64,000 bases of DNA, taken from Salinimicrobium sediminis. GTDB taxonomy: Bacteria; Bacteroidota; Bacteroidia; Flavobacteriales; Flavobacteriaceae. A model generated the notes under the pieces. That model saw nothing but the letters and a program-made list of their open reading frames with translations. It did no database searches and had not been told where the DNA came from. This document shows positions 16,124 to 19,963 of this stretch, piece by piece. The DNA lies in contig NZ_OCMF01000001.1 in NCBI RefSeq assembly GCF_900215295.1, forward strand, positions 372,001 to 436,000, given 5' to 3'. The position numbers and the translations under genes were made by a program. The first letter of the stretch is position 1, and every line of letters starts with the position of its first letter.

Positions 16124-17098
16124 ATGAACCAAACCAAACCTCCGGAATTCAAAACGCCTTTTGCCGAAGATGTTTTTAAAGGCCTCACCTCCTATCCAAA
16201 AAAGATAAGTTCAAAGTTCCTTTATGATGAGAAAGGAGATGAACTCTTTCAAAAGATCATGGACCTTCCGGAATATTACCTTACAGGAAAGGAATACCAG
16301 ATCCTTATGCGCAACCGGGAAGAAATAGGAAACGAATTTGCCTCTTTTGAAGGTTTTGATCTTATAGAACTTGGGGCAGGAGATGGGAAAAAGACCAAGG
16401 TGCTGCTAAGGCATTTTGAGGAAAAGAATTATGATTATAAATACCTTCCGGTAGATATAAGCAGAAATGTACTGGACCAGTTAAGCGAAAGCCTAGAACA
16501 GGAAATTCCCGGAGTGGAGGTCTCCCCGCAACAGGGTACCTATGCTATGGTTCTAAACCGCCTGGCAGATTACCGGGAACGCAAAAAGGTCATTTTATTC
16601 CTGGGTTCCAATATTGGAAATCTCACTCCCGAAGAAGCAGTAGCTTTCCTTAAGAAGATTGCTTCTGCCATGAATCCTGGAGACATGTTCTTTATGGGCG
16701 TGGATCAAAAGAAGGATCCGCAGGTGATCCTCGATGCGTATAATGACAAAGCCGGCGTGACCGAAGCTTTCAACAAGAACCTTCTGGTGAGGATGAACCG
16801 GGAACTGGAAGCAGATTTTGATCTTGATGCCTTCGTTCACTGGCCGCTGTACAACCCCGAGACCGGGGCGGCAAAAAGTTACCTGGTGAGTACCAAAGAA
16901 CATACGGTACAGATAAATGCTCTCAATCTGGAAGTTCATTTTCAGAAATGGGAAACCATTCATACCGAAGTCTCTCAAAAATATGATGACACCTCCATAG
17001 CCTGGCTGGCGGAAGAAGCAGGTCTTAAGCTCAGTCGCAGCTGGGCCGATAAAGAAAATACCTTTAAAAATTACCTTTTTCAAATCTCCCGAACATGA
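16124..17098 (+). CDS. egtD: L-histidine N-alpha-methyltransferase (EgtD-like)
   Basis: 324 residues, the full length of the EgtD family. It has YPKKISSKFLYDEKGDELF and the LPEYYLT segment at the N-terminus, the SAM-site IELGAGDGKKTKVLL (about 82-96), FLGSNIGNLTPEEA (site of the histidine-binding asparagine region) and the late TEVSQKY motif, matching the Glu-x-Ser pair that binds the amino group in the mycobacterial enzyme. It would trimethylate histidine to hercynine, the first step to ergothioneine. EgtB, the usual partner, is not adjacent. The next gene overlaps by four bases (ATGA). Confidence 0.9.
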   Translation: MNQTKPPEFKTPFAEDVFKGLTSYPKKISSKFLYDEKGDELFQKIMDLPEYYLTGKEYQILMRNREEIGNEFASFEGFDLIELGAGDGKKTKVLLRHFEEKNYDYKYLPVDISRNVLDQLSESLEQEIPGVEVSPQQGTYAMVLNRLADYRERKKVILFLGSNIGNLTPEEAVAFLKKIASAMNPGDMFFMGVDQKKDPQVILDAYNDKAGVTEAFNKNLLVRMNRELEADFDLDAFVHWPLYNPETGAAKSYLVSTKEHTVQINALNLEVHFQKWETIHTEVSQKYDDTSIAWLAEEAGLKLSRSWADKENTFKNYLFQISRT

Positions 17099-17376: not shown

Positions 17377-17429
17377 TTTTGTAAATCGAAAAAAAGAACT
17401 AAGTTTACAATTCACAAAAGCAAGAACAA

Positions 17430-17507
17430 GTGATCTTCAATATCAACAATAATAATTTCAATAACAATCTGAATCGACTCAGGTTGCGGAAAGCTATTAT
17501 TGTATAA
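17430..17507 (+). CDS. asnA leader peptide 1 (asparagine-rich)
   Basis: A 25-residue frame from a GTG start, ending TAA: M-I-F-N-I, then four Asn, Phe, three Asn, Leu, Asn, then a basic stretch RLRLRK and AIIV. Nine of 25 residues are Asn. A stop codon ten codons before the GTG bounds the frame. It lies upstream of asparagine synthetase and is directly followed by an intrinsic terminator, the layout of an attenuation leader peptide. Its stop codon lies 24 bases before the terminator stem, so a ribosome finishing there would cover the end of the antiterminator strand. No functional peptide is expected; what matters is the rate of translation. Confidence 0.75.
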   Translation: MIFNINNNNFNNNLNRLRLRKAIIV

Positions 17508-17563
17508 CAAGATCCCTTAAACAATATTCAAAGCCTTTCCCACACCAGGAAAGGCTTTTTTTT
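17446..17563 (+). promoter_or_regulatory. Attenuator 1 of asnA (pause hairpin, antiterminator, terminator)
   Basis: Three pairings can be read directly. Pause hairpin: 17446-17454 (inside the Asn codons) with 17495-17503, 9 bp perfect. Antiterminator: GGAAAGCT at 17488-17495 with AGCCTTTCC at 17532-17540, 8 bp with one bulged C. Terminator: AAGCCTTTCC (17531-17540) with GGAAAGGCTT (17548-17557), 10 bp perfect, 7-base loop, eight T to 17563. The antiterminator uses the same strand as the terminator, so they exclude each other. A ribosome stalled at Asn codons would block the pause hairpin and favour the antiterminator. Confidence 0.75.
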
Positions 17564-17571
17564 ACACGCAT

Positions 17572-17688
17572 ATGAAACGACTGCAAAATAATAACATCAA
17601 TAATAATGGTCCGCCACCCGGGGGAAAGGAACTCTGTGCTTATAAGCCTGTTTCTTCCCGGAAGCAGGCTTTTTTATTTTTTTTTTAA
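17572..17688 (+). CDS. asnA leader peptide 2 (asparagine-rich, running through its terminator)
   Basis: Starts ATG nine bases after the T-run of attenuator 1. It reads M-K-R-L-Q, three Asn, Ile, three Asn, then G-P-P-P-G-G-K-E-L and on to a TAA inside the second T-run: 38 residues, six Asn. In contrast to leader 1 there is no stop before the terminator. The three prolines directly after the Asn block are a known kind of slow, EF-P-dependent sequence. A ribosome paused there would cover the antiterminator strand, which might replace the missing stop codon; this is inference. The effective coding part may be just the first 20 codons. Confidence 0.65.
   Translation: MKRLQNNNINNNGPPPGGKELCAYKPVSSRKQAFLFFF
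17622..17686 (+). promoter_or_regulatory. Attenuator 2 of asnA (antiterminator and terminator)
   Basis: Terminator: AAGCCTG (17644-17650) pairs with CAGGCTT (17665-17671), with an inner CTTC/GAAG stem beyond a TTT bulge, followed by a T-rich run of 17 bases to 17686. Alternative: 17622-17632 (GGGA, bulged A, AGGAAC) pairs with 17650-17659 (GTTTCTTCCC), 10 bp including one G-U. The two structures cannot form together. The 5' antiterminator strand lies 15 to 25 bases after the last Asn codon, so a ribosome stalled on Asn would leave it free. asnA starts 24 bases after the T-run. Confidence 0.65.
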
Positions 17689-17709
17689 ACAACATCTAAA
17701 ACTTAAAAC

Positions 17710-18732
17710 ATGAAAACAATTGCTCAACCCTTATCACAAAGATTAGCCGCAGAAGAAGCTGTGGATTTTTTAAAATCAACCTTTGAAAAACATCTTAAAT
17801 CAAAGCTTTCCCTTAGCAAAGTGGCCGCTCCCACTGTAGTGCTCCATGGCACCGGAATTAATGATGACCTTAACGGAATTGAACGCCCCGTAGGATTTCC
17901 CATTAAAGAGATGCAGGAACAACGCGCCGAGGTGGTGCAATCTCTTGCTAAATGGAAAAGGTTACGGCTAAGGGAATATGAATTGGAACCCGGCTCCGGA
18001 ATTGTGACGGATATGAAGGCGCTGCGCCCCGATGATGAGCTGGGGCCAATGCACTCTATTTCGGTAGACCAGTGGGACTGGGAAAAAGTGATGGCTCCTG
18101 AAGAAAGACATCTGGATTTCCTGAAACAACAGGTAAGCAGTATCTATGAAGCCATACTTACTACCGAAGCTGCCCTGGCTGCTCAATATCCTCTTATCTC
18201 TCCCATTCTTCCTTCGGAAATCACCTTTTTGCATACAGAAGAACTTCAACAAAAATATCCCCATCTTACGCCGAAACAAAGAGAAGACATGGCTGCCAGG
18301 GAATTTGGGGCTGTTTTTCTAATTGGGATAGGAGGGGAACTTGAAGGCGGAGAACCACACGACGGCCGGGCTCCCGACTATGATGACTGGAGCTCCCCAA
18401 CCTCTGCTACCACAAAAGGTCTCAACGGAGATATCCTGGTGTGGAACCCCGTGCTGGAAAAGGCTTTTGAACTCTCCTCCATGGGTATTCGCGTTGATGC
18501 TCCTGTTCTGGAAAAACAATTAAAAATCAGAAAAGCAGAAACAAGAAACGCACTTTTTTACCACAGCCAACTGCTGACAGGGAAACTTCCGCAAACCATT
18601 GGGGGCGGTATTGGACAGTCGCGGTTGAGCATGTTCCTGCTCAGGAAAAGACATATTGGAGAAGTACAGGTAAGCATCTGGCCGGAAGTGATGAGGCAGG
18701 AAATGCATTCTGAAGGAATATTTTTGTTGTAA
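17710..18732 (+). CDS. asnA: Aspartate-ammonia ligase (asparagine synthetase A)
   Basis: 340 residues, close to the 330 of E. coli AsnA. It is a class II aminoacyl-tRNA-synthetase-like fold: KVAAPTVVLHGTGINDDLNGIERPV, then IVTDMKALRPDDELGPMHSISVDQWDWEK, REFGAVFLIGIGGEL and the motif-3-like GGGIGQSRLSMFLLRKRHIGEVQ. It makes asparagine from aspartate, ammonia and ATP (to AMP and PPi). The 333-bp leader with two Asn-rich peptides and two terminators strongly suggests repression when charged tRNA-Asn is plentiful. It stands alone; a palindrome and a converging gene follow. Confidence 0.97.
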   Translation: MKTIAQPLSQRLAAEEAVDFLKSTFEKHLKSKLSLSKVAAPTVVLHGTGINDDLNGIERPVGFPIKEMQEQRAEVVQSLAKWKRLRLREYELEPGSGIVTDMKALRPDDELGPMHSISVDQWDWEKVMAPEERHLDFLKQQVSSIYEAILTTEAALAAQYPLISPILPSEITFLHTEELQQKYPHLTPKQREDMAAREFGAVFLIGIGGELEGGEPHDGRAPDYDDWSSPTSATTKGLNGDILVWNPVLEKAFELSSMGIRVDAPVLEKQLKIRKAETRNALFYHSQLLTGKLPQTIGGGIGQSRLSMFLLRKRHIGEVQVSIWPEVMRQEMHSEGIFLL

Positions 18733-18814: not shown

Positions 18815-18847
18815 AGACCTCCCAGGTTTTGGAAACCTGGGAGGTCT
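18815..18847. repeat. 15-bp perfect palindrome, probable two-way terminator
   Basis: AGACCTCCCAGGTTT and its exact complement with a 3-base loop, between two converging genes. It is A-rich on the left, so it may work as a terminator for the minus-strand gene. It shares the CCAGGTTT/AAACCTGG type of core with other palindromes of the window. Confidence 0.75.
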
Positions 18848-18883: not shown

Positions 18884-19963
18884 CTAGTTTATGTTTTTGA
18901 GCAACTTTTCAAGATCGGCTACAGAATTGAAATAGTTAAAACTAACCCTGATTCCATCTCCCCTCATGGAACAAAGGATCTTATTGCTCCGCAGCTTTTG
19001 AAAAAGCTTTTCATCACCTTTGATATTAAAGATGGAAGAATGCAATTTCCGGTTCACTACGGCAGGCTCCAAAAGGTTAAGTTCAGAAAGTTCTTTTTTA
19101 GCAACTGCCGCCAGGTCTTTGATCCTGAGCTCTATTTCATCCATTCCTGTGTTGTTAATCAAATCAATAGCGGTTTTTAAACTTCCGAAGTTGAGCGTGT
19201 CCAGGTGACCGGGCTCAAACTTACCGATAAAACTGCCCTTATGCGGCTTGTTCTTACCCTGAAGATCTTTTAGCTCCAGCCCTTTTGGAGCAATTTTCTC
19301 CTGCATATGTTCTTTAAAGAGAAAGAAAGCATTTCCATAGCCGGCATTGAGCCACTTATATGCACTGGCCCCAAGTACATCCAAAGCTGAAGCTTCAAAA
19401 TTAAATTTTTCGGTTCCGCAATACTGGGTACCATCAGCAAAAAGCAGCAGTTCCGGGTATTGTTCCTTCAGCTTCAGAAGGAAATCGGGATCTATTTTTA
19501 TTCCGTTGATGTACTGTACCAGGCTAAAAGCGAAAATATCTGGTTTGTGCTTTTCTACTGCTTCAGCAATATTTTCTTCCAGGTTTCCATCGATTTCTGC
19601 ATAGCAGATTTTAAATCCGCGGGATTCCACTGCCCAGTTTACCGAAGGATAATCATTCCGCAGCAAAAGCACCTTTTTAGAAGCCTCCATGCCTTCCATG
19701 AGCAGGTTAAAACCATAGGAAAAATTAGGAGTGAGCGCGACCCTGTTGGCGGCACAGCCAAAAAGAGCACCAACAGCTTTCCGCGTCTTCAGGAAAAGCT
19801 CATCCCGTTTCTCCCTAAACAAACTGCCCCCTACCAGGAAATCGAGATCATGATCCTGCCGGAATTCCAAAACATCATCAGACAAAAGTCCGGAAGCAGC
19901 TGTATTGAGATAGGTATATTGTTCCAGGAGTGGGAACTGTTTCTTAAAATTCTTCATGTTCAT
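18884..19963 (-). CDS. Aminotransferase class V / cysteine desulfurase-like PLP enzyme
   Basis: 359 residues. PLP-fold features: YTYLNTAASGLLSDDVLEF near the N-terminus, ALTPNFSYGFNLLMEG (phosphate cup), FADGTQYCGT (aspartate contacting the pyridine nitrogen), and the Schiff-base lysine in LGASAYKWLNAGYGNAFF (about residue 204). The closest groups are isopenicillin-N-epimerase-like and NifS-like proteins; the catalytic cysteine loop of true cysteine desulfurases is not obvious, so the substrate is open. The start may be either of the first two methionines (residue 1 or 3). Divergent from the 2TM-folA unit. Confidence 0.85.
   Translation of the reverse strand: MNMKNFKKQFPLLEQYTYLNTAASGLLSDDVLEFRQDHDLDFLVGGSLFREKRDELFLKTRKAVGALFGCAANRVALTPNFSYGFNLLMEGMEASKKVLLLRNDYPSVNWAVESRGFKICYAEIDGNLEENIAEAVEKHKPDIFAFSLVQYINGIKIDPDFLLKLKEQYPELLLFADGTQYCGTEKFNFEASALDVLGASAYKWLNAGYGNAFFLFKEHMQEKIAPKGLELKDLQGKNKPHKGSFIGKFEPGHLDTLNFGSLKTAIDLINNTGMDEIELRIKDLAAVAKKELSELNLLEPAVVNRKLHSSIFNIKGDEKLFQKLRSNKILCSMRGDGIRVSFNYFNSVADLEKLLKNIN

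Follow-up and report, generated by a model that had tools for sequence, protein, structure and literature searches.

Tandem asparagine-codon leader units ahead of asnA in Salinimicrobium sediminis: a probable ribosome-mediated attenuator with relatives ahead of other Bacteroidota amino-acid genes

The closest described counterparts of the leader analysed here are the thr, leu and trp leaders of Escherichia coli, which resemble it in their frame of product codons, in their alternative antiterminator and terminator structures, in the placement of region 2 just past the stalled ribosome and in their folding values, which are similar. Polyproline-sensitive leaders also exist, such as mgtL, and the name of another RNA, the Bacteroid-trp motif, suggests trp genes. 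PMC2864571 counts this motif (Rfam RF01692) among the probable cis-regulatory RNAs of Bacteroidetes. Leader-peptide attenuation itself has been suggested within the phylum, both in the accessible text of PMC7366714 and in that of PMC9723704, where it is proposed for amino-acid biosynthesis operons with structured 5' regions in Flavobacterium psychrophilum. A first, sequence-only reading of the present locus had described such attenuation as little described in Bacteroidota, a statement that the Flavobacterium proposal qualifies.

The locus was studied within a window of 64,000 nucleotides, that is, the whole stretch of S. sediminis DNA that was analysed. Both leader frames, both terminators and both antiterminators are packed into positions 17430-17687, ahead of asnA, and the features are as follows.

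17378-17407, forward strand: putative promoter, consisting of TTTG (17378-17381) and TAAGTTTA (17400-17407), a tentative assignment by motif
17430-17507, forward strand: leader frame 1, GTG start, 25 amino acids, 9 Asn codons, stop codon at 17505-17507
17482-17546, forward strand: antiterminator 1, predicted pairing between regions 2 and 3, core strand CGGAAAGC at 17487-17494
17530-17563, forward strand: intrinsic terminator 1, stem 17530-17558, T-run 17556-17563
17572-17688, forward strand: leader frame 2, ATG start, 6 Asn codons within 17587-17607, stop codon at 17686-17688
17611-17619, forward strand: Pro-Pro-Pro of frame 2 (CCG CCA CCC), proposed ribosome pause
17618-17661, forward strand: antiterminator 2, predicted pairing, statistically weak
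17644-17686, forward strand: intrinsic terminator 2, stem 17644-17671, T-run 17670-17686 with one interrupting A
17710-18732, forward strand: asnA, aspartate--ammonia ligase (asparagine synthetase A), TIGR00669 match of 401.5 bits against a cut-off of 292.8

Frame 1 encodes MIFNINNNNFNNNLNRLRLRKAIIV and its stop codon lies 22 nt from terminator 1, while the product of frame 2 is MKRLQNNNINNNGPPPGGKELCAYKPVSSRKQAFLFFF, in which the Asn codons are followed by Gly-Pro-Pro-Pro-Gly-Gly and the frame then stays open across terminator 2. The stems of terminators 1 and 2 fold with -14.7 and -16.4 kcal/mol (z -5.3 and -5.7), and 0/200 shuffles were as good in either case. Antiterminator 1, at -14.0 kcal/mol, stands moderately above its shuffles (z -2.8, 1/200 as good), and antiterminator 2, at -15.2 kcal/mol, is weak when taken alone (z -1.2, 28/200 as good). 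The sequence-only reading had placed two frames with 9 and 6 Asn codons ahead of asnA, each followed by an intrinsic terminator with a competing antiterminator. The frames, their codons and the TIGR00669 match bear this out, as do both terminators, and both competing pairings exist, but only the first of them rises above shuffled sequence; likewise, the order of frame and then terminator holds for unit 1 but not for unit 2, in which the frame runs through the terminator with no stop codon before it.

The association of Asn codons with terminators is rare in the window. Among 50 terminator-like sites on its two strands, only two are preceded by an Asn-rich frame (5 or more Asn among 10 codons), and both are the asnA leader units; for the other 19 amino acids, the same search yielded no site with 17 of them and three sites in total with Phe and Leu. 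Phe/Leu runs near positions 587, 718 and 48315 were considered as leaders and dismissed after their sequence had been read. The putative promoter element TAAGTTTA resembles TAnnTTTG, given as the Bacteroidota -7 consensus in the accessible text of PMC9723704, and TAnnTTT[GA] lies no more than 75 nt upstream of the first leader start at 15/37 asnA loci and 16/19 of the gat loci described below, compared with 33/408 control windows. Because an asnB-type gene over its cut-off is also present in the S. sediminis genome, asnA is not its sole candidate asparagine route. As for the surroundings, a gene for an EgtD-like L-histidine N-alpha-methyltransferase (16124-17098; 313.8 bits, cut-off 290.9) stands two genes upstream of asnA, and a PLP enzyme related to cysteine desulfurases is encoded past asnA on the opposite strand (18884-19963), every NCBIfam match of which, including EgtE, falls far below its cut-off. 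Between asnA and this convergent gene there is a 31-base palindrome at 18816-18846, composed of GACCTCCCAGGTTT, TGG and AAACCTGGGAGGTC.

On the strength of the sequence and its comparison with other genomes, we regard it as very probable that asnA is controlled by ribosome-mediated transcription attenuation at Asn codons, in two serial units. The translation of the frames, the stalling, the direction and size of the response and the roles of Pro-Pro-Pro and of the tandem arrangement are as we infer them. With ample Asn-tRNA, the ribosome would pass the Asn codons and come to rest over region 2, at the stop codon in unit 1 and probably through slowing at Pro-Pro-Pro in unit 2; with region 2 covered, region 3 would pair with region 4 and RNA polymerase would terminate. 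With scarce Asn-tRNA, the ribosome would stall at the Asn codons, region 2 would begin just past its front edge, and this free region 2 would pair with region 3 before region 4 exists, so that the polymerase would read on. Transcription of asnA would require read-through of both units.

The leader is conserved within the genus. Counting the genome of the window, asnA is present in 10 of the 12 genomes of the genus that were searched, and both Asn frames, both terminators and Pro-Pro-Pro occur in all 10 of these, with AAT and AAC exchanged for each other within the Asn runs. In the genus g212, which belongs to another family of the same class, asnA is found in 20/61 genomes and a single Asn unit, commonly MRHFRNNLQNNNSNNN...WKAI, at 20/20 asnA loci; G366 (L101), also of g212, carries an Asn unit as well. 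The sequence-only reading had itself named orthologous asnA genes lacking Asn runs or stems as evidence that would speak against it, and at 10/10 loci of the genus and 20/20 of g212 an Asn frame and a terminator are in place. Elsewhere, tandem units occur at L011, L024 and L040 and weakly at L087. A Mesonia (L012/L098) has one unit only, and a weak one and a unit-like one are present at L022 and L115, respectively. In the family sample the leader stands at 4/11 asnA genomes, and among the 80 asnA loci listed it was recovered in 4 by script, together with 2 weaker cases by eye. The distribution across asnA loci is therefore patchy, most other loci having been read without finding a leader. The full set comprises 37 loci and 51 units across Bacteroidota, from which the duplicates L020 (equal to L008), L098 (equal to L012) and L126 (equal to L100) had been removed before counting. 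A separate feature was noticed at L120-L139 (g212), where the region approximately 70 to 40 nt upstream of asnA, between the terminator and the gene, contains a conserved A-run, a hairpin of the CTCCC..GGGAG type and, mostly, GTGTGCC; no terminator follows this hairpin, and the region somewhat resembles the stretch after Pro-Pro-Pro in Salinimicrobium unit 2.

Of the 725 codons that the 51 units contain up to the last Asn codon, 366 are Asn and 14 are Lys (all AAA), counts in which the start of L006 unit 2 was set too far upstream, making its last Asn codon wrong, and in L139 the last Asn codon was placed too far downstream, as also holds for the shuffle and ribosome-position counts below. Of the remaining two frames of these units, one has 11 Asn codons and 51 stops and the other has 9 Asn codons and 192 stops. 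The selection of the 51 units by their Asn count biases these totals, and a fair comparison comes from the genus and from g212, for which all asnA loci were taken: 150 Asn versus 9 Lys codons in the genus (20 units) and 161 versus 1 in g212 (21 units, with the duplicate dropped). Runs of AAT and AAC are weakly structured and the neighbouring DNA is often A/T-rich, and one might accordingly regard the codon runs as enhancers of translation or as spacers without structure, with terminators that only limit read-through from upstream. However, AAA is equal to AAT in A/T and yet Lys is far outnumbered in both genera, and Ile/Val codons occupy the equivalent place ahead of ilv genes; we give this explanation hardly any credence, and less than any other considered here.

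The co-variation of the antiterminator core also argues for attenuation. In an alignment of 27 sequences (A1), which was built without structure, all 162 cells of the 6-pair core helix of the antiterminator are paired, a percentage biased in favour because the helix was itself chosen by RNAalifold on that alignment. Four of its six pairs are changed on both sides, as are 13 cells, and four of five measures were not equalled in any of 500 shuffles (18/500 for the fifth), although related sequences may exceed such covariation shuffles even without structure. The covariation that the sequence-only reading had named as a check is thus present in the antiterminator core. Among 18 hand-picked representatives, matched region 2 and region 3 gave a mean energy of -13.5, versus -10.9 when mismatched (0/10000 permutations), the own partner ranking first in 4/18 and being weaker than the average foreign partner in 5/18. 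Region 2 surpassed dinucleotide shuffles, with p up to 0.05, in 38/51 units; the 13 exceptions comprise nine second units from the genus, L022, the second unit of L040 and both units of L087. At least 6 nt of the terminator 5' arm are paired upstream in 48 of 50 asnA units (L087 unit 2 lies outside the length limits) and in 19/19 gat units, versus 14 to 22 among 48 other window terminators. Unit 1 combines a frame of pathway codons and a terminator before the gene with an exclusive, co-varying antiterminator.

With its A site on a given codon, a ribosome reaches forward to about +12. When the RNA was folded from the last Asn codon with no further constraint, pairing with the terminator arm began at a median of +14 relative to that codon in the 47 of 51 units that have a value, at +12 or beyond in 34 of the 47 and at +7 to +11 in the others; in the four units without a value (L121, L123, L134 and L137), the last Asn codon had been wrongly assigned, next to the stop codon. 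The regulatory codons are so placed that a ribosome stalled on them would leave region 2 free. With a ribosome placed on the last Asn codon, the transcribed part of the leader folds with -9.6 to -24.9 kcal/mol, and with a ribosome placed on the stop codon or on Pro-Pro-Pro the fold drops to between 0 and -4.6 kcal/mol and the antiterminator is lost; the identical calculation for thrL, trpL and leuL of E. coli gave -8.9 to -19.9 in the stalled state versus 0 to -4.4. Equilibrium folding of the whole leader at three ribosome positions favours the terminator nearly everywhere, including the stalled state, in which the probability of the terminator falls below 0.5 in 2/49 asnA and 0/19 gat units. 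When no ribosome is placed, the second units of L005, L006 and L008 fold otherwise in this calculation and their terminator is disfavoured. The stalled thr, trp and leu leaders of E. coli likewise keep the terminator at equilibrium. This type of folding is uninformative for both sets, and we relied on the folding of the RNA made before region 4.

T-boxes ahead of asnA occur in Firmicutes, and alternative structures ahead of a biosynthetic gene are typical of T-boxes and riboswitches as well. Thus, a sensor of tRNA or asparagine made of RNA only (a T-box, a riboswitch or a protein-binding leader), with incidental short frames, must also be weighed. Among the leaders scanned (the window and 14 loci), no Rfam family reached its gathering score: the Asn leaders have no covariance-model match to a T-box and none to the described riboswitch classes, a TPP match in L120 lying elsewhere in that locus. 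A scan at relaxed threshold likewise placed no family at the leaders, and below threshold the lowest E-value for unit 1 belongs to Thr_leader (27.4 bits against 55, E 0.003). Since the conservation is specific to the frame and to the amino acid, a sensor of RNA only is disfavoured, and we consider it very improbable.

The second unit raises a different question, as the stop codon on which a ribosome could park in unit 1 is absent from unit 2 in the 10 genus genomes and in L024 and L040. Exactly these 12 units carry Pro-Pro-Pro, starting one or two codons past the last Asn codon, and a stop codon before the terminator is found in 0/12 units with Pro-Pro-Pro versus 37/39 without it; in L005 the stop codon overlaps the first bases of the terminator. 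From the last Asn codon to the third Pro codon the distance is 9 to 12 nt, and hence a ribosome held on the latter would mask the antiterminator strand. Polyproline is known to slow E. coli ribosomes, upon which intrinsic terminators form behind the polymerase (accessible text of PMC5021804). We tentatively propose that in unit 2 Pro-Pro-Pro replaces the stop codon as the ribosome parking place over the antiterminator strand, while holding this to be somewhat more doubtful than probable. If it is true, Asn-tRNA would set the response of such a unit, EF-P activity would fine-tune it, and the effects of the two serial units would multiply; a missing stop codon with Pro-Pro-Pro in its stead is a testable new idea on ribosome parking in attenuators. 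The Pro codons are identical across the genus and differ between lineages at only two third positions, and their near invariance means that the Pro-Pro-Pro stretch may have a role at the RNA level. The three lineages with Pro-Pro-Pro may share one ancestral cassette. L011 unit 2 reads Pro-Pro-Gly, with a stop codon immediately after it. Two further ideas on frame 2 were dropped: frameshifting, as inspection by eye showed no conserved position for the stops of the alternative frames, and translational coupling to asnA, as the end of the frame varies among species.

Alternatively, unit 1 might work alone as the attenuator and unit 2 might be a relic or an extra plain terminator, its frame and Pro-Pro-Pro being meaningless. 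The absent stop codon ahead of terminator 2 would fit such a role, as would the single unit of the g212 leaders and the finding that, in 9/10 genus genomes, shuffling the GC-rich region 2 of antiterminator 2 yields pairings that are just as good; however, the Asn run, Pro-Pro-Pro and terminator of unit 2 have been kept in 10/10 genus genomes and in L024 and L040, and two second units elsewhere have antiterminators that surpass shuffles, with 13 pairs in L024 (0/200 shuffles as good) and p 0.015 in L011. We consider a meaningless second unit unlikely, and attenuation by two serial units is the reading retained here.

The same type of leader was found ahead of a second target. When 299 genomes of the family were searched with a covariance model built from asnA leaders only (R1; E up to 0.01), 72 of them gave a match, and the best 30 matches consist of 6 asnA leaders and 24 leaders of gatC-gatA operons in other Flavobacteriaceae. 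In the latter, MRNNNNNNNFNNPNF and its stop codon are followed by a terminator, a gatC-like gene and then gatA, which was seen in 23 of the 24 loci, the remaining one reaching the end of its contig. The gatC-like gene encodes 88 to 89 amino acids in most cases, and its product is graded only as GatC-like because that of L144 scores 24.1 bits against a cut-off of 47.1. The three gatA genes tested against their family scored 375 and 393 bits (truncated frames) and 432 bits (whole), all below the cut-off of 481. In L190, the next gene encodes 1112 amino acids, and a family search assigned GatB domains to the first half of the product and an entire aspartate--tRNA ligase to the second. This GatB::AspRS fusion (L190:2596-5934, downstream of gatC-gatA) resembles a single-chain component of an Asn transamidosome, its domain content having been checked in L190 alone, and by its predicted products gatC-gatA-gatB::aspS is the set needed for making Asn-tRNA(Asn) from Asp-tRNA(Asn). 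In 13 further genomes an open frame near gatA, 1115 to 1122 amino acids long, contains a synthetase match. These frames of fusion length belong to G054, G708, G081, G172, G165, G173, G046, G169, G185, G183, G696, G029 and G017, and the same genomes have a further synthetase match, in a frame of approximately 585 to 620 amino acids, that was taken as a putative ordinary AspRS.

The upstream regions of 30 of 31 gatC-gatA operons were read (in G180 the contig begins at gatA), and 19 of them have an Asn leader and 11, L210 and L224 included, have none. Among the 24 genomes with a gat leader, asnA is absent from all 18 searched. The gene asnS is present in 20/20 genomes tested, and asnB over its cut-off is absent from 9 of 13 gat-leader genomes tested. 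Seven of these nine were also searched for asnA and have neither gene, so that the gat operon may be the only asparagine route there. Across 199 genomes, asnA occurs in 11 and gatA in 31, and no genome has both, an exclusion that is only suggestive because chance alone predicts approximately 1.7 shared genomes. A tRNA-dependent asparagine route alongside AsnRS is known elsewhere (accessible part of PMC4206432), and in the literature searched no gat route under the control of an Asn leader was found. The Asn leader fits the gat operon neatly, since this route makes the Asn-tRNA(Asn) that the leader would read. One sensor type thus appears ahead of two unrelated asparagine routes, a synthetase of the free amino acid (asnA) and the tRNA-dependent gatC-gatA with the gatB::aspS fusion. 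As a side observation, the GatC-like proteins (L144:1652-1918, L195-L224) mostly contain an Asn-rich stretch in mid-protein, such as NANTTNNNAFNNHNN, and this stretch also occurs in operons without a leader.

Leaders of this layout with other codons were recovered too. Examination by eye of 20 weaker R1 matches gave 16 leaders rich in Ile/Val and 4 ordinary terminators. For 15 of the 16, ilvD and/or ilvE are in view (verified by family search in one example each), and the other one is at a contig end. In a wider sample of the phylum (390 genomes, E up to 1e-4), three matches fell outside the known groups: a Thr leader ahead of a ThrA-like aspartate kinase (L254), an Ile/Val leader ahead of an ilvD-like gene by eye (L255) and a leader, possibly an attenuator, ahead of asd (L256). 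The Ile/Val and Thr leaders that were found with the asnA-leader model include L229, L230, L235, L240, L254 and L255. With Ile/Val codons ahead of ilv genes and Thr codons ahead of a ThrA-like kinase, the codon of the leader tracks the pathway. Frames, codons, alternative pairings, conservation, co-variation of the unit 1 type and this match of codon and pathway are features of the loci themselves, and the attenuation by Asn put forward in the sequence-only reading gains its support from the conservation of the leader, the covariation and the agreement of codon and pathway in the gatC-gatA, Ile/Val and Thr leaders.

Taken as a whole, our analyses provide strong comparative support for leader-peptide attenuation in Bacteroidota and would add asparagine to the amino acids sensed in this manner. 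The sequence-only reading had known of no described Asn attenuator; our search for asparagine or asnA together with leader-peptide attenuation, which covered a literature with most subscription journals outside it, likewise returned nothing relevant. Given the earlier suggestions in the phylum and no Asn precedent, the mechanism is a known one, and the Asn case, the tandem form and the Pro-Pro-Pro unit are new as far as searched. The F. psychrophilum case comes from the same bacterial family, and PMC9723704, as far as accessible, names no asparagine case and its main text does not contain 'asparagin'. The Bacteroid-trp family (RF01692) has no Rfam match at the Asn leaders scanned. In the EF-P coupling of polyproline leaders, as the accessible text of PMC5021804 presents it, the loss of EF-P is the trigger, whereas in asnA unit 2 Pro-Pro-Pro is proposed to be a fixed parking place. 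The Ile/Val and Thr leaders of Bacteroidota (L229, L240, L254 and L255) are like the asnA leaders in the layout of region 2 and terminator (by eye) and in their place directly ahead of the gene, but differ in codons and pathways, and no second unit was noticed in those read. Finally, unlike the thr, leu and trp leaders of E. coli, the asnA leader reads asparagine, has two complete serial units and, in its second unit, has no stop codon before the terminator.
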